Shown: piece after piece, positions 13,217 to 42,844 of the stretch
Position numbering within the stretch: position 1 is the stretch's first letter
Layout: each line of letters starts with the position of its first letter
Assembly: GCF_000372745.1 (NCBI RefSeq)
Contig: NZ_KB889708.1
Span: forward strand, 62,001 to 126,000
Length of the DNA: 64,000 bases
From: Embleya scabrispora DSM 41855
Lineage (GTDB): Bacteria; Actinomycetota; Actinomycetes; Streptomycetales; Streptomycetaceae
Direction of reading: 5' to 3'
Program-made: the position numbers and the translations under genes
Notes under the pieces: model-generated
What the model saw: only the letters and a program-made list of their open reading frames with translations
Database searches by the model: none
Told to the model about the DNA's origin: nothing

Positions 13217-13942
13217 TCAGTCGGCCGTCCAGCCGCGGAAGATGCCGACGCAGCCGCGGACGGACAGTTCGTGGTGATCGAAGTACCGATCGAGCTGCGC
13301 ACGGAGGTCGTCCAGTGTGTCGCCGTCGTTGTGGAACGCCCCCTGCTTGTTGAGCAGCCGCATCGCCTTACGGGCGGCGAGGGACACCGGGACGCCGGCC
13401 GACAGGACCGTGGTGCCGAAGACGACGCCTCCGGGGCGGACCACGGCCGCGGCGTGCGCCAGCACGATCCCCTTCTCCCGCAGGCTTCCCGGGATGCAGT
13501 GCAGCAGATAGCTGATCCCGACCGAGTCGTGGGAGCCGTCCGGTACGGGCAGCGGCTCCAGCACGTTCGCGCGCACCGTGGCGACGTGGTAGCGGCGCAG
13601 GCGATGTGCCGTGTGGGCCAGGGAGTTGGGGTTGAGGTCGACCAGGGTGATCCGCGGGTCGGGCACCGGGAACCGCGCGTGGTGGAGCAGGTACCCGCTG
13701 CCCACGCCGATGTCCATGTGGCGCGCACCCACGCCGGTGTCGTACAGGCGTCGGGAGACCGTCGGCGGACAGCGCCACAACAGCGGTGCGGTGCCTCGAT
13801 ACACCACGAGGTCGTAGAGGTTGAGGAAGGGTTTCGAGTATCCGGCCTGCCCGTCGAGGACGGCCTGGTCGAGGTGGTCGAGCGGCTTGTCGTCGAGGCG
13901 TTCGAGCGGCTTGTTGTCGCTGGTGCTGTCGGACGTCATCAT
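13217..13942 (-). CDS. O-methyltransferase of the nitroaryl polyketide cluster (AurI-like)
   Basis: A 241-residue class I SAM methyltransferase with motif I HMDIGVGSGYLLHHA (residues about 74-88), acidic motif II LVDLNPNSLAH and the later segment VRPGGVVFGTTVL. Its likely job is methylation of the enolic hydroxyl of the pyrone made by the last PKS, as AurI does in aureothin biosynthesis. It is the last gene of the minus-strand operon. Its ATG overlaps the stop of PKS-C (ATGA, 13939-13942), and AAGGAG for its translation lies inside the PKS gene, so the two are translationally coupled. The second ATG at 13939 is an alternative start. Position next to the TE-containing PKS supports a post-PKS role; methylation site and substrate are inferred. 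Confidence 0.85.
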   Translation of the reverse strand: MMTSDSTSDNKPLERLDDKPLDHLDQAVLDGQAGYSKPFLNLYDLVVYRGTAPLLWRCPPTVSRRLYDTGVGARHMDIGVGSGYLLHHARFPVPDPRITLVDLNPNSLAHTAHRLRRYHVATVRANVLEPLPVPDGSHDSVGISYLLHCIPGSLREKGIVLAHAAAVVRPGGVVFGTTVLSAGVPVSLAARKAMRLLNKQGAFHNDGDTLDDLRAQLDRYFDHHELSVRGCVGIFRGWTAD

Positions 13943-16900
13943 GCTCCTTGGGTGCCTCGGGGTGGTTGGCTGCCGTGGTCTCGATGCGAACCGCCGAGCC
14001 AGTCGCCCACCGCGCGCAGCACGGGGCCGCTGTGCTCACGGATGATGGAGAAGTGCGTTCCGGGCGTGTCGACTGCCGTGTGCGGCAGATGCCAGCGGGG
14101 CCGCCAGTCCTGCGGCGGGTCGTCGAAACTTGCCTCCGCGGCCCGTACGAGCAGCGTCGGCGCGCCGATCTTCGCGGGGGTCCACGCCTGGAACAGACCG
14201 GTGTAGTGCGCCAGCGCCGTGAGGTGGGTGTCGTCCTCGGCCTCCTGTGTCCACGGCTCGTCCGATGCTCCGGACCTGCGAGCCGCTTCGATCCGGGCGT
14301 GGATGTGTCGGAGCATCGCGCTGCGTGGCCAATGGCTGTCCAAGAGGACGACGGCGTCGGGCCCGGCTCCGCGTGCTTCGAGAACAGCCGCCGTGGCGTG
14401 GGCGATCCAGCCGCCTGCGGAGTAGCCGAGGAGGACCACGGGACCGCCCTCGGCGCACCGCACGACACCGTCCGCCTGGAGTTGTGCCAACACGTCCACG
14501 GATGCGGGCAGCGACTCGTGCGGACCGAAACCGGGCACCGGCAGTACCCAGACGTCGTGCTCGCCTCGGGACGCGGCCGCGAGTCGGGCGTACTGGGATG
14601 CTCCCGAGCCGACGGCGAAGGTCGGGAAGCAGACGAGGCGGGCCGCGGAGCCGCGCGCCAGCCTGACGTGCGCGGGCCGGAACCGCTCGTCGGGGTTGTC
14701 GAAGATGGGACGGAACCGGGCGATGCGTCGCATCAGTTCCTCGAACTCGTCGGTCCGGCCCATGTCACCGGCGCGGGCGAACAGGGGGCCGAGGGTGAAC
14801 CCGGCCCCGCCCGTCCCGGCACGTGCCACCTCCGCGCCGCCGGTGTCCTCGTCGCCCGCAGGCCCCGTTTCCTCCCATCGCGCGACCAGGTGCCGGGCCA
14901 GGGAGACGACCGTGGGGTATTGGAAGACGAGGCCGGGCACCAGGCGCAGGCCGGTGTCCGCGCCGAGGCGGTTGCGCAGGTCCACCGCCGTCAGCGAGTC
15001 GAACCCCAGCTCGGGCAGCGGCCGATCGGCGTCGACGGCCTCCGGATCCGCCAGGCCCAGGACCGCGGCCACGTGCGTACGAACCCACGCGACGACGAAT
15101 CGCGCCCGTTCCTCCCCGTTCGCGGCCGCCAGGCGCTCCCTGATCTCCCGGCCCCGGTCCGGCCGCGACGGAGCGTACTCGCCCGGGGACCGGGCCGCGC
15201 CCATCGTCGGACCGCCGCCCTCGGGCCAGTACCGCTCGCGCCCGAACGCGTACGTGGGCAGGTCCACCAGGCGGGCACCGCAGTCGGCGAGCATCCTGTC
15301 CCACCCCACCGCAACGCCCCGGACGTGCAGATGGGCCAGCGCGCCCAGGAACGCGCCGAGTTCGGTGCCGTATTCCGGCCCTGGCATCGGCAGAACGGTG
15401 ACGTTCTCGGCCGCGGCGGTCGCGGCCATCGCGGCGTCTGCGCCACCCGTGCCGTTCGGGTCCTCGGTACCGTCCGTCGGAGCTGCGGCGCCGGGCCCCA
15501 CACACTCCGCGAAGGTGTTGTCGGCCCCCATCCGAAGGCAGACGCACACCCCTTGCGACCCGAGCCCGCGCACGGCGTCGGTCGGCGCGCCGTCGTCCCG
15601 GATCAGCCGCACCCAGTACTCCGGCGAGGACAACTCCTCGTACGCCACCGGCCCGCCCGTGCGGCCGGAGGCGAGCGGGGTCAGCGGCCGGCGGAAGGTC
15701 AGTTCCTTGACGACCCGTCGCACGCCCTCCCCCGCCGAGTCGTCGGACACCGTCGGGTCGGCCTGCGCCGCGCACTCCGACGCCCGGCCGAGGGCGACGA
15801 CGAGTGCGGCCGCGTCGGTCAGGGACAGCACACCGGCGCAGTGCGCGGCGGTGACCTCACCGACGGATCGCCCGAGCAGCAGCCCGGGTTCGATCCCCCA
15901 GTGTTCGAGGAGCCGAAACAGCGCCACCTCCCCGGCGAACAGCGCGCCCTGAGCCAGGATCGGGTCCTGCGGCGTCTCGCCGTGCCGCGGTGGAACCTCG
16001 CCCTGCGGGCGGTCCAGCCGCGCCGCGATCGCGGTATCGGCCTCGTCCAGGGCCGACGCGAACATCGGGATCCGCGCGGACAACTCCCCCACGAGTCCGG
16101 CTCGTTCCGCCACCGCTTCGCGCGGCGGACCGGAGAACAGGAACGCGACCCGGTCCCGGCCCCGCGCGATGCCCCGGACCAGCCCCGGTGCGGATCCGTC
16201 CCGGGCCAGTTCCGCCAGCGACACCAGCAAGGCGTCCCGGTCCCGGCCGAGGATCACGGCGCGGTGGGCGAGGCCGGCCCGGGTCGCCGCCAGGGAACGC
16301 GCGACGTCGACCGGTGCGAGTTCCGCGCGCTCGCGAACGAACCGGCGCAACCGGCCGGCCTGCGCACGCAGCGCGTCCGAGGTCCCGCCCGACAACACCC
16401 ACGGCACCGTGGGCAGCGTGGCGAACGGATCCGGCGCGTGCCGCGGCGAACCCGGGGGCCGTGTTTGCGCATGCTGATCGCCGGACGTCCGCTGCGCCGG
16501 CCCCGCGCTCGATGGGGCCGGTTCGGGTTCACGCACCGCGTCCGCGTCGCCCGGTGCGTACTCCAGGATCACGTGCGCGTTGGTCCCGCTGATCCCGAAG
16601 GACGAGACACCGGCTCGCCGGGCCCGACCCGTATCCGGCCACGGTCGGGCCTCGGTGAGCAGTTCCACCGCGCCCGAGGTCCAGTCGACGTGCGGCGTCG
16701 GCTCGTCCACGTGCAGGGTGGGCGGCAACACGCCGGTGCGCATCGCCATCACCGTCTTGATCACCCCGCCCACCCCGGCCGCCGCGGCGGTGTGGCCGAT
16801 GTTGGACTTGAGCGACCCCAGCCACAGGGGGGCGTGGACCGGCCGGCCCTGCCCGTACGTGGCCAGGAGGGCCTCCGCCTCGATGGGGTCGCCGAGCGTG

Positions 16901-19900
16901 GTGCCCGTGCCATGGGCCTCCACGGCGTCCACGTCCCGCACGGTCAGCCCCGCGTGGGCCAGGGCCTGCCGGATCACGCGCTGCTGGGCGAGTCCGTTGG
17001 GTGCCGACAGGCCGTTGCTCGCCCCGTCCTGGTTGATCGCGGTGCCGCGGATCACGGCGAGGACCGGGTGCCCGGCGTTTCGGGCCACCGACAACGGTTC
17101 GACCAGGAGCACGCCGACGCCCTCGCCCCAGCCGGTGCCGTCCGCCTCCGCGGCGAACGCCTTGCATCGCCCGTTCGGCGCCAGTGCACCCTGGCGGCTG
17201 AATTCGACGAACGCCCCCGGAGTGGAGAGGATCGTCGCCCCGCCCACCAGCGCAGCCGTGCAGTCGCCCTGGCGGATCGCCTGGACGGCCAGGTGGAGGG
17301 CGACCAGGGACGACGAGCAGGCGGTGTCGACGGTCACCGCCGGTCCTTCGAGGCCGAACGTGTAGGCGACCCGCCCCGAGGCGACGCTGGTCGAGGTGCC
17401 GGTCATCAGGTAGCCGGCGCCGCCCTCGGGATCGGCGGTCAGCAGCGACAGGTAGTCCTGACCGCTGACCCCCACGAACACCCCGGTGCGGCTGCCGGCG
17501 ACGGCGTCGGGAGCCAGCCGCGCGCGTTCGAGGACCTCCCACGTCACCTCGAGGAGCAGGCGCTGCTGCGGATCCATCGCCAGTGCTTCCCGCGGGCTGA
17601 TACCGAACAGGAGCGGGTCGAACCGGTCGGCGTCGTGCAGGAAACCGCCCCGGCGGACGTACGTGCGGCCCGGGCGGCCCGGGGTCGGGTCGTACAGACC
17701 CGCCGTGTCCCAGCCGCGGTTGCTCGGGAAGGAGGAGATCGCGTCCCGTCCCGAGGCGACCAGGTCCCACAATTGCTCGGGCGAGGCCACGTCACCGGGG
17801 TAGCGGCAACCCATCGCGACGATCGCGATCGGCTCGGCGGCGGCAGCCGTCACCGGCTCGTCGACCTGCTCGGGGGCGCCGGTCAGGCGCGCCAGCAGGT
17901 GCGCGGCCAGCCTCTCGGCCGTCGGGTGGTCGAACACCGCCGCCGGGGAGAGGCGGACACCGGTCGCCGTGGCGAGCCGGTTGCGCATCTCCATCGCCGT
18001 CATCGAGACGAACCCGAGGTCGGTGAACGCCTGGGTGATGTCGACGTCCGCCGCGGAGCCGCGGTTGAGCACGGCGGCGGCATGCTCGCAAACCGTCTCC
18101 AGGACCAGGTTCCCCCTGCCGCTGTCGGGCAGTTCCGCGAGGCGCTGCCGGAACACGGCGGCCGCGCTGTCGTCGCTCTCCCGGATCGGGGCGGCAGCGG
18201 GCAGCGCGTCGGGCCAGTAGCGGCGGCGCTGGAACGCGTACGTCGGCAGGTCCACCAGGCGGGCCCGCCCTCCGATGTGGGCCGACCAGTCCACCGGCAC
18301 GCCCCGGACGTGCGCCTCCGCGAGGGAGGTGAGGAAACGCCCGAGGTGCCCTTCGTCGCGCCGCAGCGACGTCAACACCGTGCCTTCGCCGACGCTCCCG
18401 GGACTCGCGGCGCCTTCCGTGATCTCGTGCAGGGACACCGCGAGCACCGGGTGTGGGCTCATCTCCACATAGGTGTGGTGCCCGGCCGCCAGGAGTTCGC
18501 GCACCGTCGGGTCGAAGCGGACCGTCTCGCGCAGGTTCCGGTACCAATAGGCGGCGTCGAGCCCCGAGGTGTCGACGGGGCCGCCCAGGACCGTCGAGAA
18601 GAACGGGATCGCGGCCGCCTGCGGGGCGATGTCGGCGAGGATCGTGACGAGTTCGGCCTCCAGTGCCTCGACCTGGGCCGAGTGCGAGGCGTAGTCCACC
18701 GCGACGCGGATCGCTCGCACGCCGTCCTGCTCGGCGGCGTCCAGGAGTTCGTCGAGCGCCTCGGCGTCGCCCGAGACCACGACGGACCCGGGGGCGTTGA
18801 CCGCGGCGACGGACAGGCGTGTTCCCCATGCCGAGAGCCGGTCGCGGGCCCGGTCCGCCGGAAGGCCGAGGAACGCCATGCCCCCGCTGCCGGCCAGGCG
18901 TTCGGCGACCAGGCGCGAGCGCCTTGCCACGATTCGCGCCCCGTCTTCCAGGGACAGGGCACCGGCGACGCACGCGGCGGCGATCTCGCCCTGGGAGTGG
19001 CCCACCACGGCGCCGGGTTCCATGCCGTGCGACCGCCACAGGGCGGCGAGCGAGATCATCATGGCCCACAGCGCGGGCTGGACCACATCCACGCGGTCCA
19101 ACGAGGCCGCGCCCTCGGCGCCGCGGACGACGTCCACGAGCGAGAAGTCGACGTGCGGCGCGAGCGCTTCGGCGCACTCGTGCAGCCGCTCGCGAAAGAC
19201 CGCCGAGTCGCGGCACAGGTCCGCTCCCATGCCCTCCCATTGGGCGCCCTGGCCGGGGAAGACGAACACCGGTTTCCCGGGGTCGCGTGCGACGCCCGTG
19301 ACGACACCGGCGGCGCTCTTCCCCTCGGCGATGGCTTCGAGGCCCGCGAGGTACGCGTCCCGGTCGTCGGCCAGCACCACGCCTCGGTGGTCGAACAGGG
19401 TGCGCGAGGTGAGCAGCGAGTGCGCGACGTCGGCCGACGCCAGGTCCGGGCGGGTACGTACGTGCTCACGCAGCCGGGCCGCCTGCTCTCGCAGCCCCCG
19501 ACCGTTCCTCGCGGTGATCAGCCACGGCAGCGGCCCGGTGTGCGCACGGTCGCCCTCGACGAGCTTCCGCGCGCGGTCGTCCGCTCGGTCGGCAGAGCCG
19601 TCGGGCGCGACGGGTGCGGCGGTCGGTGCGACGAGGGGCGCGGGGAACGTGTCGTCCGGAGACTGTTCCAGGATCACGTGGGCGTTGGTGCCGCTGATCC
19701 CGAAGGACGACACCCCGGCCCGGCGCGGTCGGCCGGTCCGCGGCCAGTCCCGCGCCTCGGTCAGCAGGCGAACCGCCCCGGAGGCCCAGTCCACGTGCGG
19801 GGTCGGCTCGTCCACGTGCAGGGTGGGCGGCAGGATGCCCCGGCGCAGTGCCATCACCGTCTTGATGACGCCGCCGACGCCCGCCGCCGCCTGGGTGTGG

Positions 19901-21039
19901 CCGATGTTCGATTTGATCGATCCCAGCCACAGCGGCCGATCCGCCGGGCGCTCCCGACCGTAGGTCGCCAACAACGCCTGAGCCTCGATCGGATCACCGA
20001 GCGCGGTACCGGTGCCGTGCGCCTCCACCGCGTCGATCAAGTCCGCCGACAACCGCGCGGACGCCAACGCCCGCCGGATCACCCGCTGCTGCGACGGACC
20101 GTTCGGCGCCGTCAAACCATTCGACGCACCATCCTGATTCACCGCCGAACCCCGCACCACCGCAAGCACCGGATGCCCCTGCTCCCGCGCCCGCGACAAA
20201 CACTCCAACAACACCAGACCCACACCCTCCCCCCACCCCGTACCATCCGCCGCCGCCGCGAACGCCTTGCACCGACCATCCACCGCAAGACCCCGCTGCC
20301 GACTGAACTCCACGAAGATCCCCGGGGTCGTCATCACCGCGGCTCCGCCGGCCAACGCCAGGGTGCACTCGCCCTGCCGCAACGCCTGCACCGCCAGATG
20401 CAAAGCCGTCAACGACGCCGAACACGCCGAATCGACCGTGATCGCCGGACCCTCCAGACCGAACGTGTACGCCAGACGACCCGACAACACACTGGCGGCG
20501 GCGCCGGTGAGTTGGTGCCCCTCGGTGCCGTCGCCGGTCCCGCCCCCGCTGCCGCCGGTCATCAGGACCGATCCGACGAAGGCCCCGACGGGTTGTCCCT
20601 TGAGACCGCCGGGATCGATCCCCGCGCGTTCGAACGTCTCCCACGCGATCTCCAGGAGCAGCCGCTGCTGGGGGTCCATCGCGGCGGCCTCGCGCGGGCT
20701 GATCCCGAACAGGTCCGCGTCGAACTCCGAGGCGTCGTCGAGGAAGGCGCCTTCGCGGGCGTAGGTGTGGCCCGACCGGTCGGGGTCCGGGTCGAAGAGC
20801 GTCCCGGTGTCCCAGCCGCGGTCGGTGGGGAAAGCCGAGACCGCGTCGGTTCCGGTGGCCACCAGCTCCCACAGGTCCTCCGCGCAGCGCACGCCCCCGG
20901 GGAAGCGGCAGCCCATCGCCACGATCGCCACCGGCTCGTGGGCTGCCGCCGTCAGCTCGCGCGTTTGCGCGCGGAGCGACTCGACCTCCTTCAGCGAGGC
21001 CCGCAGTGCCTCGACGAACCTCTCGTCAGCGACCGCCAT
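13939..21039 (-). CDS. Type I polyketide synthase PKS-C: KS-AT-ACP-KS-(damaged AT)-ACP-TE (AurC-like)
   Basis: A 2366-residue terminal bimodular PKS. Module 1: KS (from about residue 34, active site DSACSASL), AT near 590-800 with GHSQGE and VDYASHS (methylmalonyl type), ACP near 1010 with GFVSM instead of GFDSL but Ser kept. Module 2: KS from about 1068 (DTACSSSL), an AT-like region near 1630-1850, ACP with GFDSL near 2011, then a thioesterase (GYSAGG near 2205, C-terminal His in GTHFSII). Neither module has reductive domains, so two keto groups should remain and cyclise to a pyrone on release. The second AT is abnormal: FLFSGPP replaces FVFPGQG, GRSVGE replaces GHSVGE, and about 100 residues including the HAFH/YASH segment with the catalytic His are missing. 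Start ATG 21039 lies 14 bp inside the PKS-B gene end. The KS1 coding region contains a patch of different codon use (about 19950-20510). Confidence 0.93.
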   Translation of the reverse strand: MAVADERFVEALRASLKEVESLRAQTRELTAAAHEPVAIVAMGCRFPGGVRCAEDLWELVATGTDAVSAFPTDRGWDTGTLFDPDPDRSGHTYAREGAFLDDASEFDADLFGISPREAAAMDPQQRLLLEIAWETFERAGIDPGGLKGQPVGAFVGSVLMTGGSGGGTGDGTEGHQLTGAAASVLSGRLAYTFGLEGPAITVDSACSASLTALHLAVQALRQGECTLALAGGAAVMTTPGIFVEFSRQRGLAVDGRCKAFAAAADGTGWGEGVGLVLLECLSRAREQGHPVLAVVRGSAVNQDGASNGLTAPNGPSQQRVIRRALASARLSADLIDAVEAHGTGTALGDPIEAQALLATYGRERPADRPLWLGSIKSNIGHTQAAAGVGGVIKTVMALRRGILPPTLHVDEPTPHVDWASGAVRLLTEARDWPRTGRPRRAGVSSFGISGTNAHVILEQSPDDTFPAPLVAPTAAPVAPDGSADRADDRARKLVEGDRAHTGPLPWLITARNGRGLREQAARLREHVRTRPDLASADVAHSLLTSRTLFDHRGVVLADDRDAYLAGLEAIAEGKSAAGVVTGVARDPGKPVFVFPGQGAQWEGMGADLCRDSAVFRERLHECAEALAPHVDFSLVDVVRGAEGAASLDRVDVVQPALWAMMISLAALWRSHGMEPGAVVGHSQGEIAAACVAGALSLEDGARIVARRSRLVAERLAGSGGMAFLGLPADRARDRLSAWGTRLSVAAVNAPGSVVVSGDAEALDELLDAAEQDGVRAIRVAVDYASHSAQVEALEAELVTILADIAPQAAAIPFFSTVLGGPVDTSGLDAAYWYRNLRETVRFDPTVRELLAAGHHTYVEMSPHPVLAVSLHEITEGAASPGSVGEGTVLTSLRRDEGHLGRFLTSLAEAHVRGVPVDWSAHIGGRARLVDLPTYAFQRRRYWPDALPAAAPIRESDDSAAAVFRQRLAELPDSGRGNLVLETVCEHAAAVLNRGSAADVDITQAFTDLGFVSMTAMEMRNRLATATGVRLSPAAVFDHPTAERLAAHLLARLTGAPEQVDEPVTAAAAEPIAIVAMGCRYPGDVASPEQLWDLVASGRDAISSFPSNRGWDTAGLYDPTPGRPGRTYVRRGGFLHDADRFDPLLFGISPREALAMDPQQRLLLEVTWEVLERARLAPDAVAGSRTGVFVGVSGQDYLSLLTADPEGGAGYLMTGTSTSVASGRVAYTFGLEGPAVTVDTACSSSLVALHLAVQAIRQGDCTAALVGGATILSTPGAFVEFSRQGALAPNGRCKAFAAEADGTGWGEGVGVLLVEPLSVARNAGHPVLAVIRGTAINQDGASNGLSAPNGLAQQRVIRQALAHAGLTVRDVDAVEAHGTGTTLGDPIEAEALLATYGQGRPVHAPLWLGSLKSNIGHTAAAAGVGGVIKTVMAMRTGVLPPTLHVDEPTPHVDWTSGAVELLTEARPWPDTGRARRAGVSSFGISGTNAHVILEYAPGDADAVREPEPAPSSAGPAQRTSGDQHAQTRPPGSPRHAPDPFATLPTVPWVLSGGTSDALRAQAGRLRRFVRERAELAPVDVARSLAATRAGLAHRAVILGRDRDALLVSLAELARDGSAPGLVRGIARGRDRVAFLFSGPPREAVAERAGLVGELSARIPMFASALDEADTAIAARLDRPQGEVPPRHGETPQDPILAQGALFAGEVALFRLLEHWGIEPGLLLGRSVGEVTAAHCAGVLSLTDAAALVVALGRASECAAQADPTVSDDSAGEGVRRVVKELTFRRPLTPLASGRTGGPVAYEELSSPEYWVRLIRDDGAPTDAVRGLGSQGVCVCLRMGADNTFAECVGPGAAAPTDGTEDPNGTGGADAAMAATAAAENVTVLPMPGPEYGTELGAFLGALAHLHVRGVAVGWDRMLADCGARLVDLPTYAFGRERYWPEGGGPTMGAARSPGEYAPSRPDRGREIRERLAAANGEERARFVVAWVRTHVAAVLGLADPEAVDADRPLPELGFDSLTAVDLRNRLGADTGLRLVPGLVFQYPTVVSLARHLVARWEETGPAGDEDTGGAEVARAGTGGAGFTLGPLFARAGDMGRTDEFEELMRRIARFRPIFDNPDERFRPAHVRLARGSAARLVCFPTFAVGSGASQYARLAAASRGEHDVWVLPVPGFGPHESLPASVDVLAQLQADGVVRCAEGGPVVLLGYSAGGWIAHATAAVLEARGAGPDAVVLLDSHWPRSAMLRHIHARIEAARRSGASDEPWTQEAEDDTHLTALAHYTGLFQAWTPAKIGAPTLLVRAAEASFDDPPQDWRPRWHLPHTAVDTPGTHFSIIREHSGPVLRAVGDWLGGSHRDHGSQPPRGTQGA

Positions 21040-24000
21040 CGTGCTCCTCCGTCCGTGCGTGTGCCGCGTTGTCGGGGTCCGTGACGAGGTCGTCGTGCTC
21101 GCCGTACGGGCCGTCGTGCAGCGCCATCGCAAGCAGCCCCTCGGCGTCCATCCGGTCGATCGAGCCGGACCCCGGCCCGGGGCTGTGCTCCCGGGGTGCC
21201 GACTCGGCCGCGGCGGCGTGGCCCGCGAGTTGCAGCAGCGAGTCCAGCAGGCCGGCGTCGCGCAGCCGGGAGAGCGGAATGCCGGCCAGTGCATCGCGCA
21301 CCCGACGTTCGGTGTCACGCGGTACGTCCGCCCCCTTCTCTCGGGGAGCAAGCTCCGCGGCCAGGCGCTGGGCGAGCGCCGTGGGGGTGGGGTGGTCGAA
21401 CACCAGCGTCGGGGGCAGCCGCAGGCCGGTTGCGCCGGCGAGCCGGTTGCGCAGTTCCACGGCCGTCAGCGAGTCGAACCCGAGGTCCTTGAAGGCCCGG
21501 TCCCGTCCCACCGCCTCGGTGGTCGGGTAGCCGAGGACGGTCGCGGTCTCGACGTGGACCAGTTCGAGCAGTTGCCGGTCCCGCTCGGCCGGCGACAGCG
21601 CGGCCAGGCGCCGCCGTGGCGCCGCGGCGCTCGTACCCCCGGAGCCCCTGCGTCGCGCCGGGCCGCGCACCAGGTCGCGCAGCACCGAGGGCAGCGTGTC
21701 GGGCCGCGTCCGGAACACGGACAGGTCGAGCCGCATCGGCAACACCAGCGGCTCGTTCACGGTGCCGGCGAGGTCGAAGAGCGCCAGGCCGTCCCGGGTC
21801 GGCAGGCCCTGGACGCCGACGCGTGCCATCCGGGCCCGGTCGGCCCGGTCGAGTCCGGCCGTCATATCGCTGCTCTCGGCCCACAGCCCCCAGGCCAGCG
21901 ACAGCGCGGGCAGTCCGGCGTGACGTCGCCGCCGTACCAGCGCGTCCAGGAACGCGTTGGCCGCCGCGTAGTTGCCCTGTCCGGCGCTGCCCAGGGTGGC
22001 CGAGGCCGAGGAGAACACCACGAACGCCGCCAAGGGTGCGGTTCGGGTCAGCTCGTCCAGGTGGCACGCTCCGTCCACCTTGGGCCGGAACACCCGGTCG
22101 ATCCGTTCCGGGGACAGCGCGGGAATCACGCCGTCGTCCAGGACACCGGCCGCGTGCACCACGGCGGTGAGGGGGTGCGCGGCGGACACCGACGTCAACA
22201 GCGCAACCACCGCGTCGCGATCGCCGACGTCGCACGCCGCCCACGTCGCCTCGGCGCCGTGCGTACCCAGTTCGGTGGTCAGGAGCGAGGCTTCGGCGCT
22301 CTCGTCGGCGCGCCGGCTCACCAGGAGCAGTCGGCGTACGCCGTGCTCGACGACCAGATGCCGGGCCAGGGCGCGCCCCAGGGTTCCGGAGGCGCCGGTC
22401 ACCAGCACGGTGCCCGCGGGGTCCCACGCCGTGCCCGGGTCGCCGCGTTCCGGGTCCACCGGGGCGATCGGGACCACCGGGACACGTTCGAGCCGGGGAA
22501 GCATGATCCGCCCCTCGCGAACCGCGAGTTGAGGCTCGTCGGTGGCCAGTGCGGCGGACAACGCGGCGACGGAGGCCGGGTGGGCGTCGAGGTCGACCAG
22601 CACGAACCGGCCCGGGTTCTCCGCCTGGGCCGAGCGCACCAGGCCCCAGACCGCCGCGGCGGACGGGTCCCCGGGAGGTTCGTCGTCCGACGTGGCGAAC
22701 GCTCCGCGTGTGACGACGACGCTCCGCGCCGCGCTCACCGGTTCCTCGGCGATCCGGTCCCGCAACACTTCCAGGGCTCGACGGGTCGCCTCCCGGGCCC
22801 GCACCGCCTCTGCACCGGCGCGGGAGTCCGTGCCGAACACCGCGAGCACGAGGTCGGGTTCGGGCTCGCCGGCACCCGTCGCGGAGCGCAACGCGGACAG
22901 GTCGGGGAAGCGCTTCACCTCCGGGGGCAGGTCCAGGTCGTCGCCGCCGAGCACCGCCCACGCGCCGTGCCGCGGTTCACCCCGCCCGGTGGGAGCGGCG
23001 GGTGCGGCGGGTGCGGCCACCCACGTGAGCCGGAACAGGTCGTCCCGGCGAACACCCGGGGCGCGCAGTCCTTCGGGGGAGACCGGACGGGCGGCCAGCG
23101 AGCGCACCGTCACCGCGGGGGTGCCTTCGGTGTCCGTCACCACCACCGACACGTCCCGGTTCGTCCCCGCGGACACCCGGACCCGCACCGCCGGGCCGCA
23201 GGGCCCGTGGAACGCGACGTCGTTCCAGGCGAACGGCACGGCCGCCGCATCGGGGCCGTCGTCCCGGTCGCGGAGCAGACAGGAGTGGAGCGCGGCGTCG
23301 AGCAGCGCGGGATGGGCGTGGTAGCGGCCCGCTTCGGCCGCCATTTCGTCCGGCAGCGCAGCCTCACCGAAGACCTCCTCCCCCACCCGCCACGCGGTGT
23401 GCAGGCCGTGGAACGCGGGGCCGTAGGACAGGCCGATCCCGTCGAGCCGTTCGTAGAAGTCGGTCAGGTCGACGGCTACGGCTCCCGGGGGTGGCCAGGC
23501 GCCGTCGAGGGCCGCCGGGGTCGCGGCCTGGGTCGCGGTGAGCATGCCGCGCGCGTGGCACGACCAGGGGTCCTGCGGGGCCGCGTCCTCGGGGCGGGCG
23601 TACACGCCGAGGGCCCGCGTGCCCCCCTCCTCGGCAGGACCGACCCGGACCTGGAGCCGCACCGCGCCGTCTCCGGCGAGGATCAGGGGCTTTTCCTGGA
23701 TCAGCTCCCGGATGTGCGGGCAGTCGGTCTCGGCGCCCGCCAGCGCCGCCAGTTCCACGAACGCGGTACCGGGCACCAGCACCGTGTCGCCGACGGCGTG
23801 ATCGGCGAACCACGGGTGGGTGTCCAGGGACCAGCGCGCGGTCAGCACGGCCTCGGTGGAGTCGGCGAGATCGACGCGGGCGCCCAGGAGCGGGTGCTCC
23901 GGGCGGCCCAGGCCCGCCGCGCTCACGTCGCCGGCACCGGCAGGTGTGTCGAGCCAGAACCTGCGCCGTTGGAAGGGGTAGGTCGGCAGGTCCACGACGC

Positions 24001-35784: not shown

Positions 35785-38700
35785 CTACTCGTCGAGCAGG
35801 TTGTCGAGGTAGTCGAAGACCTCGTCCCGCGAGGCCGAGCGCAGCCGATCCGGGTCCTCGCCGCTGCGGTGCGCGGCGGGAGGGAGCGCGTGGTCGGCGG
35901 GCGGCCCGACCGTCGTCGTCGACGACGACGACGGAGCATGCGGCAGCAGCAGGCCGCGCAGGTGTCGGCCGAGGGCGACCGGCGTGGGGTAGTCGAAGAC
36001 CAGCGTGGGCGACAGTCGTAGGCCGGTGGCGCCGCCGAGGCGGTTGCGCAGTTGCAGGGCGCGCAGGGAGTCGAATCCGATGTCGGCGAAGGAGCGCCGC
36101 TCGCCGACGGCCCGGGGGTCGTCGTACGCCAGCACGGCCGCGACGTGGGTGCGCACCAGGGTCAGCAGGAGGTCGTCCTGTTCGTCCTCCGGGAGGCCGG
36201 CGAGCCGGGTGGTCAGTTGCTCCCCGCCCGGCTCGTCCCCCGAGTCGACCGCGCCGACCGCGGTCCGGCGGACCGGGGTACGGGCGAGTCCGCGCAGCAG
36301 GCGCGGCACGTCGTCCCCGTCGCGCAGGCCCGCGGTGTCCAGCCGCAGCGGGAAGACGACGGGTTCATCGGCGGCGCAGCCGAGGTCGAACAGGGCGAGC
36401 CCCTGGGCGTCGGAGAGCGCCCTGACGCCCGAGCGGGCGATCCGCCGTACGTCCGCCTCCGCCATCGCCTCCGTCAGCCCCGATCGTGCCTGCCACAGTC
36501 CCCAGCCCAGCGACACGCCGTGCAGACCCGCGGCCCGGCGCTGCGCCATCAAGGCGTCCACGAAGGCGTTGGCCGCCGCGTATCCGGCCTGTCCGGCGGG
36601 TCCCAGTACGCTCGACACCGACGAGAACGCGACGAACGCCACGTCCGAGCCGGCCGTCGCCTCGTGCAGATGCCAGGCACCGTCCGCCTTCGGGCGCAGC
36701 ACCCGGTCGAGGCGTTCGGGGGTCTGTGCCGCCAGGATGCCGTCGTCCAGGACGCCGGCCATGTGCACCACGCCTGTCAGCGCGTACTCGGTCGGGATCG
36801 ACGCCAGGACGTCCTCCAGCGTGCGACGATCCCCCACATCGCCCGCCACCACCCGGATGTCGGCGCCCTCGGCGCTCAGTTCCTTCACGAACTCGGCTGC
36901 GCCCGGGCCCGATTCGCCCGACCGGGACACCACGACGACCCGTCGGACGCCGTGCGTGACCACCAGGTGCCGCACCACCAACCGGCCCAGTGTGCCGAGG
37001 CCGCCGGTCACCAGGACCGTCCCGTCCGTGCGCCAGGTCGCACCCCGGGCCGCCGACGCCGCCACTCGCACCAGGCTCGGGGTCAGCAGGCCCCCGTCGC
37101 GCACCGCCACCTGGGCCGCGTCCGAGGCCACCGCGTCGACGAGTGCGGATCGGGACGCGTCGCGGTCGTCGAGGTCCACCAGTCGAATGCGGTCCGGGTA
37201 CTCCGACTGCGCCGAGGCCGCCAGGGCCCAGGCCGCGGCGAGGGCGGGGTCGGGTGGCGAGCCCGGGCCCGCGGCGACCGCGCCGCGCGTGAGCAGGACC
37301 AGACGTGTGTGGGCCAGGCGTTCGTCCGCCGGCCAGTCCTGCAGTGCGGCCAGGACGGAGTGCGCGCTGCGATGCGCGGCGGTGGCCGGGTCGACGGCCG
37401 GGGATCCCGCGGCCGGCGCGAGCCCGAGGTGCCCCGACGGTTGGGCGAGGACGAGGACCTCGGGTGCGCTGCCGCCGGTGTCCAGGTACGCCCGCAGCGC
37501 CGCCGGATCCCGGTGGTGTGCGCACACGATGCCCCGGGCCGCCAGCGCGCCGTTCGTCTCGGCGGCTCCGTCCCCGATCCACGCCCAGTGCGCCGGCGCC
37601 GGGTCACGGCGCGCGCGTTGCCGCTCGGGCCGCCACTGCGGGCGCAGCAGTGAGGCGTCGGCCACGGCCGCGGCCCGACGCAGGGACCGCACGGCCACCG
37701 GGCGCATGCCCAGGGCCTCCACCGTCAGCACCGGGTGCCCGGCCGGGTCCGTGGCGGTGACCGACAGGGTGCCGGGCCCGGTGGCTCGGATGCGGGCGCG
37801 CAACGCGGTGGCACCCGTGGCGTGCAGGGTCACCCCGCTCCAGGAGAACGGCAGTCGGATCACGGACGCGTCGGATGGGACGGCGGACGCGGACACGAAC
37901 GCCGGGGCGTGCAGGGCCGCGTCGAACAGCGCGGGGTGCAGCCCGTAGCGATCGGCGCCGCCGGCGCTCTCGGGGAGTTCGGCTTCCGCGTACAGGTCCT
38001 CGTCCAGGCGCCGGCAGCGCTCCAGACCCTGGAACGCGGCACCGAAGTCGAGTCCGATCCCGGCCAACTCGCGGTAGCAGTCGCCGAGTTCGATCTCCTG
38101 CGCGCCGTCCGGCGGCCACTGCCGCAGGGGCTCCGCAAGACGGCCGTCGCCGCGCGCCAAGGTGCCTTCGGCGATCCGGGTCCAGGGCGCGTCGGCGGCA
38201 TCGCCGTCCCGGGAGTACACGGTGATCCCCCGTCGCGCGCACTCGTCGGGTCCGCCCACCGTCACCTGGAGACGGACGGTGCCCTGCTCGGGCAGGATCA
38301 ACGGGGCCTGGAGGACCAGCTCTTCGAGCACGTCGCAGCCCGCGTGCGCACCGGCTTGGAGGGCCACCTCCAGCAGTGCCGTACCCGGTACGACGAGGAT
38401 GTCGGCGACGGCGTGATCGGCGAGCCAGGGATGGGTCCTGGTGGACAGGCTCCCGGTGAAGAGCATGCCGCCGGTCCCGTCCGCCAGTGCGACCGCGGCC
38501 CCCAGCAGGGGGTGGTCGAGGCCGTCCAGACCGGCCGTCGTCACGTCCGCCTCCGGTGCCGCCGCCTCCTCCAGCCAGTAGCGGGTGCGCTGGAAGGCGT
38601 AGGTGGGTACGTCCGTCAGGCGGGCGTCGACATCGCGGAACGCCTCCGCCCAGTGCACGGCCACGCCGTGGACGTGGGCCTCGGCGACCGCGGTCAGCAT

Positions 38701-41622
38701 CCGTGCCGGGCCGCCCTCGTCGCGTCGCAGCGAGTCGACGGTCAGGACGTCACCGGCTCGCTCGGCGCCCGCGGCGTCGGCCGCCTCCTGGACGGCGGCG
38801 GTGAGGATCGGGTGCGGGCTCACCTCGATGTAGGTCGTGTGGCCGTCGGCGAGCAGCCGGTCCACCGTGCGGTGGAACTGTACGGTCTCGCGGAGGTTGC
38901 GCACCCAGTACGAGACGTCCAGGGCCGTCGTGTCGATCGGCTCGCCGAGGACCGTCGAGTAGAACGGCACGGTCGCGGGTCGCGGGCGCACGCCGGACAT
39001 CTCCGTCAGGAGGGTCGCCCGGATCTCGTCGATCCGTGCCGAGTGGGACGCGTAGTCCACCGGGATCCGCCGTGCCCGCAGACCCTGCGCCTCGAATGCC
39101 TCCATGGCCTCGCGCAGGGCCACCGGTTCGCCGGAGACGACCACGGATCGCGGTCCGTTGACCGCCGCGACGGACACGGCACCGTCCCATGGCGCAAGGC
39201 AGCGGCGCACCTGCTCGACGGGGGCGACGACCGAGACCATCCCGCCTGTGCCGGCCAGGACCCGCAGGGCGCGGCTGCGCAGGGCCACGACGCGGGCCGC
39301 GTCCTCCAGGGAGAGTGCGCCCGCGACGTGGGCCGCGGCGATCTCGCCCTGCGAGTGCCCGACGACCGCGGCCGGTTCCACGCCGAAGGACCGCCACACT
39401 GCCGCGAGGGAGACCATCACCGCGAACAGCGCGGGCTGCACGACGTCGACCCGGTCCAGGATCGACGGGTCGGCTTCACCGCGCAGCACCTTCGTCGGTG
39501 ACCAGTCGACGTGTGGGGCGAGGCAGTCGGCGCAGGCGTCGATCGATTCCCGGAACACGGGTGAGCTGCGGATCAGTTCGGTGGCCATGCCCGGCCACTG
39601 CGAGCCCTGCCCGGGGAAGACGAACGTGATCCGGTCCCGTGCCGTGGCCGTCCCCAGGGCCGCGTGCGGGCCGTGGTCGCCGTCCGCGAGCGCCGCCAGG
39701 CCGGCGATCGCCGCGGTCCGGTCCGGGGCCACCACGACGGCACGATCGGCCAGGGCGGCCCGGGAACTCAGCAGCGAGTAGGCCAGATCCGGGTCCGGCT
39801 CCTGCGGGTCCGATGTCAAGAAGTCCGCCACCCGCAACGCCTGGGCCCGTAGGCCCGCCCGCCCGGCCCCTGAGATCATCCACGGCAGCGGGCGGCCTTC
39901 GATCTCCGCGGTGCCGGTGGGGTCCCCCGCGGCCGGAGCCGCCGGTGCCGCACGAGGCCGGTCGGGTTCCGGGGGCGCCTGCTCCAGAATGATGTGGGCG
40001 TTCGTGCCACCGACGCCGAACGAGGAGACCGCCGTCCGGCGCGGCCGGTCGATCCGCGGCCACGGCCTCGCTTCGCGCAGGAGCCGTACCGCCCCGGAGG
40101 ACCAGTCCACGTGCGGCGTCGGCTCGGCGATGTGCAGGCTGCGCGGCAGTTCGGCGTGGCGCATCGCCATCACCATCTTGATCACGCCCGCCACCCCGGC
40201 CGCGGCCTGGGTGTGCCCGATGTTGGACTTCAGCGAGCCCAGCCACAGCGGCCGGTCGCTCGGCCGGTCCTGTCCGTAGGTGGCCAGGAGTGCCTGCGCC
40301 TCGATCGGGTCGCCCAACTGGGTTCCGGCGCCGTGGGCATCCACGCAGTCCACATCCGCCGTGGTCAGGCCCGCGTGGACCAGTGCCTGGCGGATCACCC
40401 GCTGCTGGGCCGGGCCGTTGGGCGCCGTCAGCCCGTTCGACGCGCCGTCCTGGTTCACCGCCGATCCGCGCACGACGGCGAGAATGTGGTGCCCGTTGCG
40501 CCGCGCGTCACACAGCCGTTCCAGGAGCAGGACGCCCACCCCCTCGGACCAACTGCTGCCGGTCGCGTCGGCCGAGAAGGACCTGCACCGCCCGTCGGGT
40601 GCCAGCCCGCGCTGTCGGCTGAACTCGACATAGCCCCAGGGCGTGGCCATCACGGTGACGCCTCCGGCCACCGCGAGCGTGCACTCGCCCCTGCGCAGGG
40701 ACTGGGCGGCGAGATGCACGGCCACCAGGGAGGAGGAGCAGGCGGTGTCCACGGTGACCGCCGGCCCCTCCAGGCCGAGGCTGTAGGCGAGGCGCCCCGA
40801 GGCGACGCTGGGCATGCTGCCCACGACCCGGTAGCCCTCCGCACTCGGCGGAACGCGCCGGATGCGGGCGCCGTACTCGCTGTACATGATGCCGACGAAC
40901 ACACCGGTCCGGCTGCCGCGCAGCGAGGTCGGGTCGATCCGGGCCCGTTCGACCGCCTCCCACGACGTCTCCAGGAACAACCGGTGCTGCGGGTCGACGG
41001 TGACGGCCTCACCGGGGCTGATCGCGAAGAACCCGGCGTCGAAGTCCGGTGCGTCGTAGAGGAATCCGGCGTGTCGGGTGCACGTCGTGCCCACGTGGTC
41101 GGGGTCCGGGTCGTACTCGACGCTCCAGCCCCGGTCGGTGGGGAACGCGGAGATCGCGTCGGTCTCCGAACTCACCAGGTCCCACAAGTCCTCCGGCGAC
41201 GACACGTTGCCGGGCAGCCGGCAGCTCATGCCCACGATCGCGATCGGCTCCTCCATCGCTGCCTGTCGCTCGGCGGGCGTGCCGGTCCCCGGGTCCGATG
41301 CGAGGGCGGCCGGCTCGCCGAGCAGCAGGGCGCACAGGTGTCCGGCGAGGGCCTCGGGAGTCGGATAGTCGAAGAGGGCGGTGCTGGACAGGGCGCTGCC
41401 CGTGACCTTGCTCAGCCGTTCCCGCAGACGTGCCGCCGCCCGCCCCCGCACCCCCTGGGCGCCGAACGCCCGGCCGGGATCGAGCGGCACCCGGTCGTCC
41501 CGGTCCAGAACGGCGGAGGCGTGCGTCCGGATCAGATCGAGCAACAGCCGGCGCCGCTCCACCTCCCGTGCGTCCGCGAGGCGCTGCCGCAACGGCCGGT
41601 CGTATCCCTCGTTCCGGTCCAT
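35785..41622 (-). CDS. Type I polyketide synthase PKS-A: pseudo-ACP-KS-AT-DH-KR-ACP (AurA-like first module)
   Basis: A 1945-residue PKS beginning at ATG 41622 (AGAAAGGA upstream); an in-frame extension to 41931 has no ribosome site or PKS features. Residues about 27-110 have the length and ending of an ACP (LFDYPTPEALAGHL), but AFGAQGVRGRAAARL stands where GFDSLxAVxLR is expected, so the phosphopantetheine Ser is missing. KS follows from about 123 (DTACSSSL near 296; the usual EAHGTGT reads DAHGAGT, His kept). AT: GHSQGE and VDYASHS, methylmalonyl type. DH: HAVADILVVPG near 1068 and HPALFDAALH near 1229. KR: TVLVTGGLGTLG near 1534, VLDD (B-type), Tyr in AGYAAANAF. ACP: GFDSLRALQL near 1847. 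It should receive the p-nitrobenzoyl starter and add a methyl-branched alkene unit; its AurA counterpart works iteratively, which cannot be decided here. Confidence 0.93.
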   Translation of the reverse strand: MDRNEGYDRPLRQRLADAREVERRRLLLDLIRTHASAVLDRDDRVPLDPGRAFGAQGVRGRAAARLRERLSKVTGSALSSTALFDYPTPEALAGHLCALLLGEPAALASDPGTGTPAERQAAMEEPIAIVGMSCRLPGNVSSPEDLWDLVSSETDAISAFPTDRGWSVEYDPDPDHVGTTCTRHAGFLYDAPDFDAGFFAISPGEAVTVDPQHRLFLETSWEAVERARIDPTSLRGSRTGVFVGIMYSEYGARIRRVPPSAEGYRVVGSMPSVASGRLAYSLGLEGPAVTVDTACSSSLVAVHLAAQSLRRGECTLAVAGGVTVMATPWGYVEFSRQRGLAPDGRCRSFSADATGSSWSEGVGVLLLERLCDARRNGHHILAVVRGSAVNQDGASNGLTAPNGPAQQRVIRQALVHAGLTTADVDCVDAHGAGTQLGDPIEAQALLATYGQDRPSDRPLWLGSLKSNIGHTQAAAGVAGVIKMVMAMRHAELPRSLHIAEPTPHVDWSSGAVRLLREARPWPRIDRPRRTAVSSFGVGGTNAHIILEQAPPEPDRPRAAPAAPAAGDPTGTAEIEGRPLPWMISGAGRAGLRAQALRVADFLTSDPQEPDPDLAYSLLSSRAALADRAVVVAPDRTAAIAGLAALADGDHGPHAALGTATARDRITFVFPGQGSQWPGMATELIRSSPVFRESIDACADCLAPHVDWSPTKVLRGEADPSILDRVDVVQPALFAVMVSLAAVWRSFGVEPAAVVGHSQGEIAAAHVAGALSLEDAARVVALRSRALRVLAGTGGMVSVVAPVEQVRRCLAPWDGAVSVAAVNGPRSVVVSGEPVALREAMEAFEAQGLRARRIPVDYASHSARIDEIRATLLTEMSGVRPRPATVPFYSTVLGEPIDTTALDVSYWVRNLRETVQFHRTVDRLLADGHTTYIEVSPHPILTAAVQEAADAAGAERAGDVLTVDSLRRDEGGPARMLTAVAEAHVHGVAVHWAEAFRDVDARLTDVPTYAFQRTRYWLEEAAAPEADVTTAGLDGLDHPLLGAAVALADGTGGMLFTGSLSTRTHPWLADHAVADILVVPGTALLEVALQAGAHAGCDVLEELVLQAPLILPEQGTVRLQVTVGGPDECARRGITVYSRDGDAADAPWTRIAEGTLARGDGRLAEPLRQWPPDGAQEIELGDCYRELAGIGLDFGAAFQGLERCRRLDEDLYAEAELPESAGGADRYGLHPALFDAALHAPAFVSASAVPSDASVIRLPFSWSGVTLHATGATALRARIRATGPGTLSVTATDPAGHPVLTVEALGMRPVAVRSLRRAAAVADASLLRPQWRPERQRARRDPAPAHWAWIGDGAAETNGALAARGIVCAHHRDPAALRAYLDTGGSAPEVLVLAQPSGHLGLAPAAGSPAVDPATAAHRSAHSVLAALQDWPADERLAHTRLVLLTRGAVAAGPGSPPDPALAAAWALAASAQSEYPDRIRLVDLDDRDASRSALVDAVASDAAQVAVRDGGLLTPSLVRVAASAARGATWRTDGTVLVTGGLGTLGRLVVRHLVVTHGVRRVVVVSRSGESGPGAAEFVKELSAEGADIRVVAGDVGDRRTLEDVLASIPTEYALTGVVHMAGVLDDGILAAQTPERLDRVLRPKADGAWHLHEATAGSDVAFVAFSSVSSVLGPAGQAGYAAANAFVDALMAQRRAAGLHGVSLGWGLWQARSGLTEAMAEADVRRIARSGVRALSDAQGLALFDLGCAADEPVVFPLRLDTAGLRDGDDVPRLLRGLARTPVRRTAVGAVDSGDEPGGEQLTTRLAGLPEDEQDDLLLTLVRTHVAAVLAYDDPRAVGERRSFADIGFDSLRALQLRNRLGGATGLRLSPTLVFDYPTPVALGRHLRGLLLPHAPSSSSTTTVGPPADHALPPAAHRSGEDPDRLRSASRDEVFDYLDNLLDE

Positions 41623-41671
41623 CCTTGTGTCCTTTCTGCCTGGGTACGACGGCCGGGAACGGGTGCGGGCG

Positions 41672-42844
41672 CTATGGCAGGTCCGTGCGCCGTTCGAGCC
41701 CGGCGACGTTGTCGCCGGCGCCGCGCGGGGCGTGGACACGAGGAGGGAGAGAGCCTGTCGCGGTCGTCGTGCGCGACCCCGGAGTCGGCGGCCTACCGTC
41801 GCGCGCCGGGTCGGGTGCCGGGTCGAGACAGCGCAGCATGCGGTTCGTGCGCTCCACGAGCGCCCCGAACGCGTCCGGGGTGATCGCTTGCTCGCCGTCG
41901 CACAGCGCGGAGTGGCCCGCCCGGTCCACATCGACCATCACCCCGTCGGCTCCAGCGGCGGCAGCGGCGACGGCCAGCGGGGCGACCAGATCGCTGCGCC
42001 CGCACGCGTGGCTGGGGTCGACGATGACCGGCAGGCGACTGAGCCGCTTCGCCAGCGGCACGGCGCTGATGTCCAGGGTGAAGCGAGTCGTGTTCCCGTG
42101 GGTACGGACGCCGCGTTCACACAGCAGCACGTTGCCGTTGCCCGCCGCCAGCAGGTATTCGGCGCCGTAGAGCCACTCCGGGACCGTGCAGCCGAAGCCC
42201 CGCTTCAGCAGCACCGGGCGGCCGGTCAACGCCACCTCGTGGAGCAGCGCGAAGTTCTGTGCGTTGCGTGCGCCGATCTGCAGTACCTGGGCCACCTCGG
42301 CGACGGCCTCGACGTGCGCGACGTCGACGACCTCCGTGACGACGCCCAGTCCGGTCTCGGCGTACGCCTCCCGCAGCAGGTCCAGGCCGGCCTTGCCGAG
42401 CCCTTGGAAGGCGTACGGGGAGGTGCGGGGCTTGAACGCGCCGCCCCGCAACAGGTGTGCGCCCCGGTCCCGCACCTCCCGTGCCACGCCGAGGAGTTGC
42501 GCTGCGCTCTCCACGGCGCAGGGCCCGGCGATCCAGGTGAGGCGTCCGCCACCCACGACACAGTCGTCGGACACCCGCACCGCGGTCGGCTCGCCCGTGG
42601 CCGCGAGACTGCCCAGGGCCGGTGCGTCGACGCTGTCGACGACCCATTCGAGCTCGGGGGTGGCCTGCAACAAGGCCACGAATTCCGCACCCTTCGGTGA
42701 TGTCGCCTCGAGGTCCGGGAAGGTGACGAGGGTGTGTCGCCCGGCCAGGCACTGAAGCGACCGGTATCCGCGCTGATGCCACGCGCAGGTCAGCCGGCTC
42801 CGGTCGTCGATCGGCACGTCGGATCGGAATCGAGCAACGATCAT
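41672..42844 (-). CDS. 3-deoxy-D-arabino-heptulosonate 7-phosphate (DAHP) synthase, type I-beta
   Basis: A 390-residue enzyme of the AroA(G)/KDO8P-synthase group, joining phosphoenolpyruvate and erythrose 4-phosphate at the entry of the shikimate pathway. Visible motifs: IAGPCAVES near residue 105, LLRGGAFKPRTSPYAFQGLG, QIGARNAQNFALLHEV, KRGFGCTVPEWLYGAEYLLA, ERGVRTHGN and PVIVDPSHACGRSDLVAPLA (metal and PEP ligands). The first 90 residues form a small domain like the regulatory ferredoxin-like domain of Thermotoga DAHP synthase, so feedback control is possible. The last 40 residues are low-complexity. It sits between the N-oxygenase (48 nt) and PKS-A (49 nt) in one operon, where it would raise chorismate supply for p-aminobenzoate. 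Start ATG 42844 has GAAGGGTGA upstream. Confidence 0.92.
   Translation of the reverse strand: MIVARFRSDVPIDDRSRLTCAWHQRGYRSLQCLAGRHTLVTFPDLEATSPKGAEFVALLQATPELEWVVDSVDAPALGSLAATGEPTAVRVSDDCVVGGGRLTWIAGPCAVESAAQLLGVAREVRDRGAHLLRGGAFKPRTSPYAFQGLGKAGLDLLREAYAETGLGVVTEVVDVAHVEAVAEVAQVLQIGARNAQNFALLHEVALTGRPVLLKRGFGCTVPEWLYGAEYLLAAGNGNVLLCERGVRTHGNTTRFTLDISAVPLAKRLSRLPVIVDPSHACGRSDLVAPLAVAAAAAGADGVMVDVDRAGHSALCDGEQAITPDAFGALVERTNRMLRCLDPAPDPARDGRPPTPGSRTTTATGSLPPRVHAPRGAGDNVAGLERRTDLP

Follow-up and report, generated by a model that had tools for sequence, protein, structure and literature searches.

Truncated and catalytically dead acyltransferase in the last module of the NorC-type polyketide synthase of Embleya scabrispora DSM 41855

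Introduction

In the aureothin polyketide synthase (PKS) of Streptomyces thioluteus, the terminal module of AurC (module 4, KS-AT-ACP-TE) carries a small and inactive acyltransferase, AT4, which AT3 of the penultimate module can replace (PMC6916388). Inactive domains are likewise bracketed in AurC and NorC in the Fig. 1 legend of PMC6718629. A dead AT4 with AT3 standing in is therefore already a known feature of the aureothin/neoaureothin family, and the finding described here is known in kind. One inactive AT in a modular cis-AT PKS has also been described for conglobatin; its AT3 (GQAVG) shows a point change in the Ser motif with stuttering of the preceding module, whereas the AT4 studied here is a small remnant (PMC4504003).

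Strain DSM 41855 has been reported to produce neoaureothin from a nor cluster without norB, in which the first KS of NorC (KS-1) is a NorB/NorC hybrid and norB may be freestanding elsewhere in the genome (PMC6718629). No experiment on NorC of DSM 41855 was found in the literature, and searches for truncated or inactive AT domains beside an adjacent module, with all terms required, gave no match. Here, a stretch of 64,000 nucleotides of this genome (contig NZ_KB889708.1, positions 62,001 to 126,000), called the window, was analysed.

Identity and organization of the cluster

According to Pfam, the terminal subunit in the window, PKS-C, contains a pair each of KS, AT and ACP domains and a single TE (Table 1). 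The order KS-AT-ACP-KS-AT-ACP-TE, the small last AT without catalytic residues and the intact methylmalonyl-type penultimate AT are those of AurC/NorC terminal subunits, and the p-nitrobenzoate starter genes, P450 and O-methyltransferase that this type requires were found in the cluster. Since genes for AurF (4-aminobenzoate N-oxygenase), PabAB, a P450, a methyltransferase, a CoA ligase and a DAHP synthase flank the PKSs, the cluster is of the aureothin type; AurF scored 695.5 against the NCBIfam equivalog-level cut-off of 620. In addition, four primers taken from PMC6718629 match without mismatch (21112-21131, 21233-21252, 20410-20429 and 20483-20502), so the window holds the published neoaureothin cluster of S. 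scabrisporus DSM 41855 or a near-identical one. PKS-C can with high confidence be called NorC, with which the PKS for neoaureothin (spectinabilin) ends, a judgement made jointly with that on the loading of ACP4 discussed below.

In trans-AT PKSs, modules are found without a working AT, with AT remnants in the KS-ACP linker. The window cluster differs in having one affected module, with a neighbouring cis AT as likely donor. A trans-AT identity was rejected, as only one of the five window ATs is not full length and every one of the five matches falls within a PKS frame.

Two further observations concern carrier proteins. ACP3 (17986-18018) reads LGFVS instead of LGFDS, and the same holds in the Streptomyces loci L001-L004 described below. 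In PKS-A (35785-41931, minus strand), the KS is preceded by an ACP-like segment in which the usual serine motif is missing, as for the inactive ACP0 of AurA; the only PP-binding match by Pfam in PKS-A is at 1926-1991.

Table 1. Coordinates in the window of the features of PKS-C.
Feature	Position	Strand	Remarks
PKS-C frame, NorC/AurC type, KS-AT-ACP-KS-AT(truncated)-ACP-TE	13939..21351	minus	part upstream of ~20316 NorB-type
Stretch R, 422 bp, probable collapsed repeat common to norB-KS and norC-KS1	19895..20316	minus	
AT3, intact methylmalonyl-type (GHSQGE, YASH), penultimate module	18265..19275	minus	specificity by motif only
KS4, last module, active-site motifs present	16570..17835	minus	
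KS4-AT4 linker domain, retained	16153..16416	minus	
AT4 remnant, truncated and catalytically dead acyltransferase, last PKS module	15277..16152	minus	PKS-C residues 1734-2025
FLFSGPP, AT4 start	16123-16143	minus	
GRSVGE, nucleophile elbow, Ser retained in window species	15856..15873	minus	
LVVALGRASECAAQ in AT4	15763-15804	minus	
Site of lost small subdomain	15718..15762	minus	15 residues (1864-1878) between LVVALGRASECAAQ and RVVKELTF
RVVKELTF in AT4	15694-15717	minus	
Low-complexity insertion in AT4 remnant	15388..15498	minus	residues 1952-1988
ACP4 with LGFDS serine	14878..15150	minus	
Thioesterase	14008..14643	minus	

Truncation of AT4

A preliminary description of this DNA had claimed that the last AT begins with FLFSGPP, carries GRSVGE, lacks the subdomain with the HAFH/YASH motif and the catalytic His in an intact frame, and is followed by a normal ACP and TE. 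Both motifs were located, and the loss was confirmed by domain coverage, by alignment and by comparison with a known structure. The match of AT4 to the Pfam model Acyl_transf_1 is confined to model positions 12-119 of 319; for the other four ATs of the window it spans 1-316 to 1-318. Alignment with intact ATs, proposed earlier as a check, showed the His-bearing segment to be gone: homologous anchors are 114 residues apart in AT3 and 48 in AT4, which leaves AT4 shorter by 66 residues (about 198 bp) on balance, and the earlier figure of about 300 bases was too high. With a profile of five AT4 sequences, the best-scoring PDB chain, 9iyw_A, was matched in two pieces (495-689 and 766-914), its residues 690-765 (76) being unmatched at the AT4 gap. 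In the AT fold, this stretch is the ferredoxin-like small subdomain, which bears the catalytic His. The deletion therefore stands, but the two flanks are not joined directly, as had been thought, since 15 residues separate LVVALGRASECAAQ from RVVKELTF. The reading frame through AT4 is open, and the downstream ACP4 (LGFDS) and TE (GYSAG) are intact, as described.

The remaining part of AT4 still models as an AT fold. A model built from an alignment of 45 sequences (5 AT4s and 40 intact ATs) reached a pLDDT of 85.6 and a pTM of 0.86, and it superimposed on 7wvz_A (CalA3; Z 33.8, rmsd 2.6, 344 residues) and on 2qo3_B (DEBS KS3-AT3; Z 31.1, rmsd 3.0, 335 residues). This modelling, another of the proposed checks, predicts an AT fold without the small subdomain, with the large subdomain and both linkers kept. 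Since the five orthologues by themselves gave only a poor model (pLDDT 43.6), the predicted fold may be partly borrowed from the 40 intact ATs in the alignment. The aligned sequence of CalA3 (8i4y) reads GHGAGE where GHSxGE is usual.

Conservation among orthologues

A scan of genome contigs kept 78 loci, among which those of S. flavofungini (L001), S. lasiicapitis (L002), S. orinoci (L003) and S. alboflavus (L004) are 50-57% identical over the whole remnant. When 394 genomes of the family, sampled from a larger group, were scanned, three of them matched at E <= 1e-60. Besides the genome of the window these are G141, which holds a further AT4 orthologue (L090), and G309, whose matching locus (L091) is not such an orthologue. 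In the genus sample of four genomes, a full-length match was found only in the window's own genome. The AT of L091 (G309:C61) keeps GHSIGEI and FSGQG and also lacks the HAFH/YASH segment; as the frame changes soon after, this loss may stem from a mistake in the assembly or the sequence.

The HAFH/YASH segment is missing in all six AT4s (window, L001-L004 and L090), and the PGQG motif was found in none of them. Since the same loss occurs in six orthologous sequences, the truncation is neither chance nor sequencing error. An error could be thought of because the assembly is fragmented (190 contigs) and apparently collapsed elsewhere in the PKS-C gene (see below), but five other sequences from separate records show the same loss and the frame is open; the probability of an artefact at AT4 is negligible, and this cause was ruled out.

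The catalytic Ser is kept in three of the six (GRSVGE in the window, GHSVGE in S. lasiicapitis, GHSLGE in S. alboflavus) and lost in S. flavofungini (GHAVGE), S. orinoci (GHGPGE) and L090 (GDFAGE). NorC of S. orinoci thus has the same truncated AT4 as the window but without the Ser, and since the window AT4 retains it, this is not the most decayed remnant. The low-complexity insertion of the window AT4 is missing in S. flavofungini, S. lasiicapitis and S. alboflavus and shorter in S. orinoci and L090. Module 4 of AurC is likened to these by its description; its sequence lies outside the compared loci, and the same deletion borders are assumed.

Constraint on the remnant was estimated as dN/dS (Nei-Gojobori, mean of 10 pairs from 5 sequences). 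Values of 0.53 and 0.60 were obtained for the two parts of the AT4 core, compared with 0.22 for AT3, 0.34 for both ACP4 and TE, 0.44 for the KS-AT linker, 0.26 for the post-AT linker and 0.13 for KS4, the most constrained of the compared domains. KS3 was left out, the window KS3 being a probable chimera. For the closest pair (S. flavofungini and S. alboflavus), the AT4 core gave 0.31 and 0.64. Constraint on the AT4 core is thus relaxed, yet the ratios stay below 1, as would be expected for a remnant with a structural role.

Loading of the last ACP

It is highly probable that AT4 of NorC is the inactive, shortened domain usual in aureothin-type synthases and, by analogy with aureothin, that AT3, a part of the same polypeptide, supplies methylmalonyl to ACP4 as well as to ACP3. 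Both the PGQG motif and the ferredoxin-like small subdomain that bears the catalytic His are gone from AT4; the last extension would still occur, and the TE would then release the chain. The AT4 remnant itself probably only holds the KS4-AT4-ACP4 architecture together as a putative scaffold. Since AT3 would supply methylmalonyl, the terminal pyrone carbon should carry CH3. The pyrone of neoaureothin is dimethylated.

Loading in trans, by a neighbouring module's AT or a separate AT, or skipping of the module had been offered before as the consequences of the loss. PMC6916388 speaks for the first of these, with AT3 as the neighbour. A discrete AT elsewhere in the genome that loads ACP4 in trans is improbable: a linker-AT frame of 448 aa with an intact GHSQGE does lie on another contig (C58:4083-5426), but the window holds no discrete AT, its five Acyl_transf_1 matches all being within PKS-A, -B and -C, and AT3 is on the same chain as ACP4. 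In addition, aureothin-type products are formed in S. albus carrying the aur cluster alone, where ATs of the host might nevertheless contribute (PMC6916388). The frame on C58 (L100) also contains DFAAHS, has no KS and is possibly a free-standing AT or a fragment.

Skipping of module 4, with release of the chain before the last extension, is less probable still. It is described for luteoreticulin, where module 4 is skipped when KR2 fails and also after replacement of AT4 by AT3 (PMC6916388), but full-length neoaureothin is reported from DSM 41855 (PMC6718629), and the motifs of KS4, ACP4 and TE are kept, with KS4 under the constraint given above. Loading by AT3 is therefore the preferred reading.

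Assembly of the norB-norC region

A norB-type gene is present in all four Streptomyces relatives (L001-L004), whereas the window assembly has none between norA' and norC. One was found in the window's own genome on contig C51 (L092; 6506 bases), which carries the norB-norC junction, starting inside the norB KS and ending inside norC KS-1. The first 95 bases of C51 are those of window 19895-19989 and the last 81 those of 20236-20316 (minus strand), the two ends of stretch R, with 246 bp between them. The genome contains a single complete, identical copy of R, and no other complete match exceeds 80%.

The protein changes its affinity across R. Upstream, the window protein shows 76-88% identity with norB of the four relatives and 57-63% with their norC; downstream, it is 89-93% identical to norC and 80-82% to norB of three relatives, S. 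orinoci being omitted because BLAST gave KS4 of its norC. C51 is the mirror image of the window, with 86-91% to norB and 80-84% to norC at its start and 82-90% to norC and 65-66% to norB at its end. Among norB-type N-termini of the genome, that of the window ranks first (88%, next 63%), and among norC-type ones that at the end of C51 does (89%, next 64%).

In all likelihood, judging from these comparisons, the true order would be norA'-norB-norC with R present twice and collapsed, and PKS-C would be a norB/norC chimera produced by mis-assembly. Against a collapse, the exact runs shared between both KS regions in the relatives are at most 38-72 bp; a repeat of sufficient length would therefore need recent conversion in this species. 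The contig ends would also look like this after a true deletion if the excised piece had survived at another site. As the printed primer sites (20410-21252) end before R, the published PCRs would succeed under either reading. Mis-assembly by collapse may be a new reading of this split cluster.

Origin of the remnant

Over the columns still present in AT4, its identity averages 37-41% with ATs of the HAFH type and 26-29% with those of the YASH type. Trees were built with 110, 56 and 47 ATs; the first set was drawn from 197 extracted ATs and consisted of all family rows together with random samples. For the last set, 19 malonyl and 67 methylmalonyl ATs passed a stricter filter; all 19 of the former and 22 of the latter entered the tree. 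In all three trees the six AT4s cluster together (100/100), apart from a second group (100/100) made up of the YASH-type ATs. The malonyl-type affinity proposed earlier thus agrees with identity and the three trees, but a placement of AT4 as nearest neighbour of the methylmalonyl (YASH) ATs is not rejected by AU tests (p 0.431 with 56 ATs, 0.203 with 47). A malonyl-type remnant is favoured, though not proven, by these sequence comparisons.

A link between AT4 and the norB malonyl ATs is neither shown nor rejected by the trees. With 56 ATs, holding them together gave 7.4 log units above the free tree (p 0.646); with 47 ATs they group in the best tree with support of 76/83, with only two norB rows in the set, and in the 110-AT tree AT4 stands beside other malonyl ATs and not those of norB. 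The parallel with luteoreticulin drawn in the preliminary description was not borne out, since PMC6916388 attributes luteoreticulin to a KR2 that does not function, with module 4 being skipped, rather than to a malonyl unit supplied by AT4.

It is tentatively suggested, as a possibility with somewhat less than even chances, that AT4 derives from a malonyl AT and that its death was an extender switch, methylmalonyl from AT3 changing the pyrone substituent from H to CH3, with the remnant kept as a scaffold for AT3-ACP4.

Conclusions

The loss in AT4 is old and common to six species, and the catalytic Ser is still disappearing. What was published as a natural split of the assembly line, with recombination in a KS, may be a short-read artefact over a KS repeat. 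The product requires methylmalonyl, yet the remnant resembles malonyl-type ATs; if the suggested origin is true, the building block would have been changed by the death of a domain and not by altered pocket residues.
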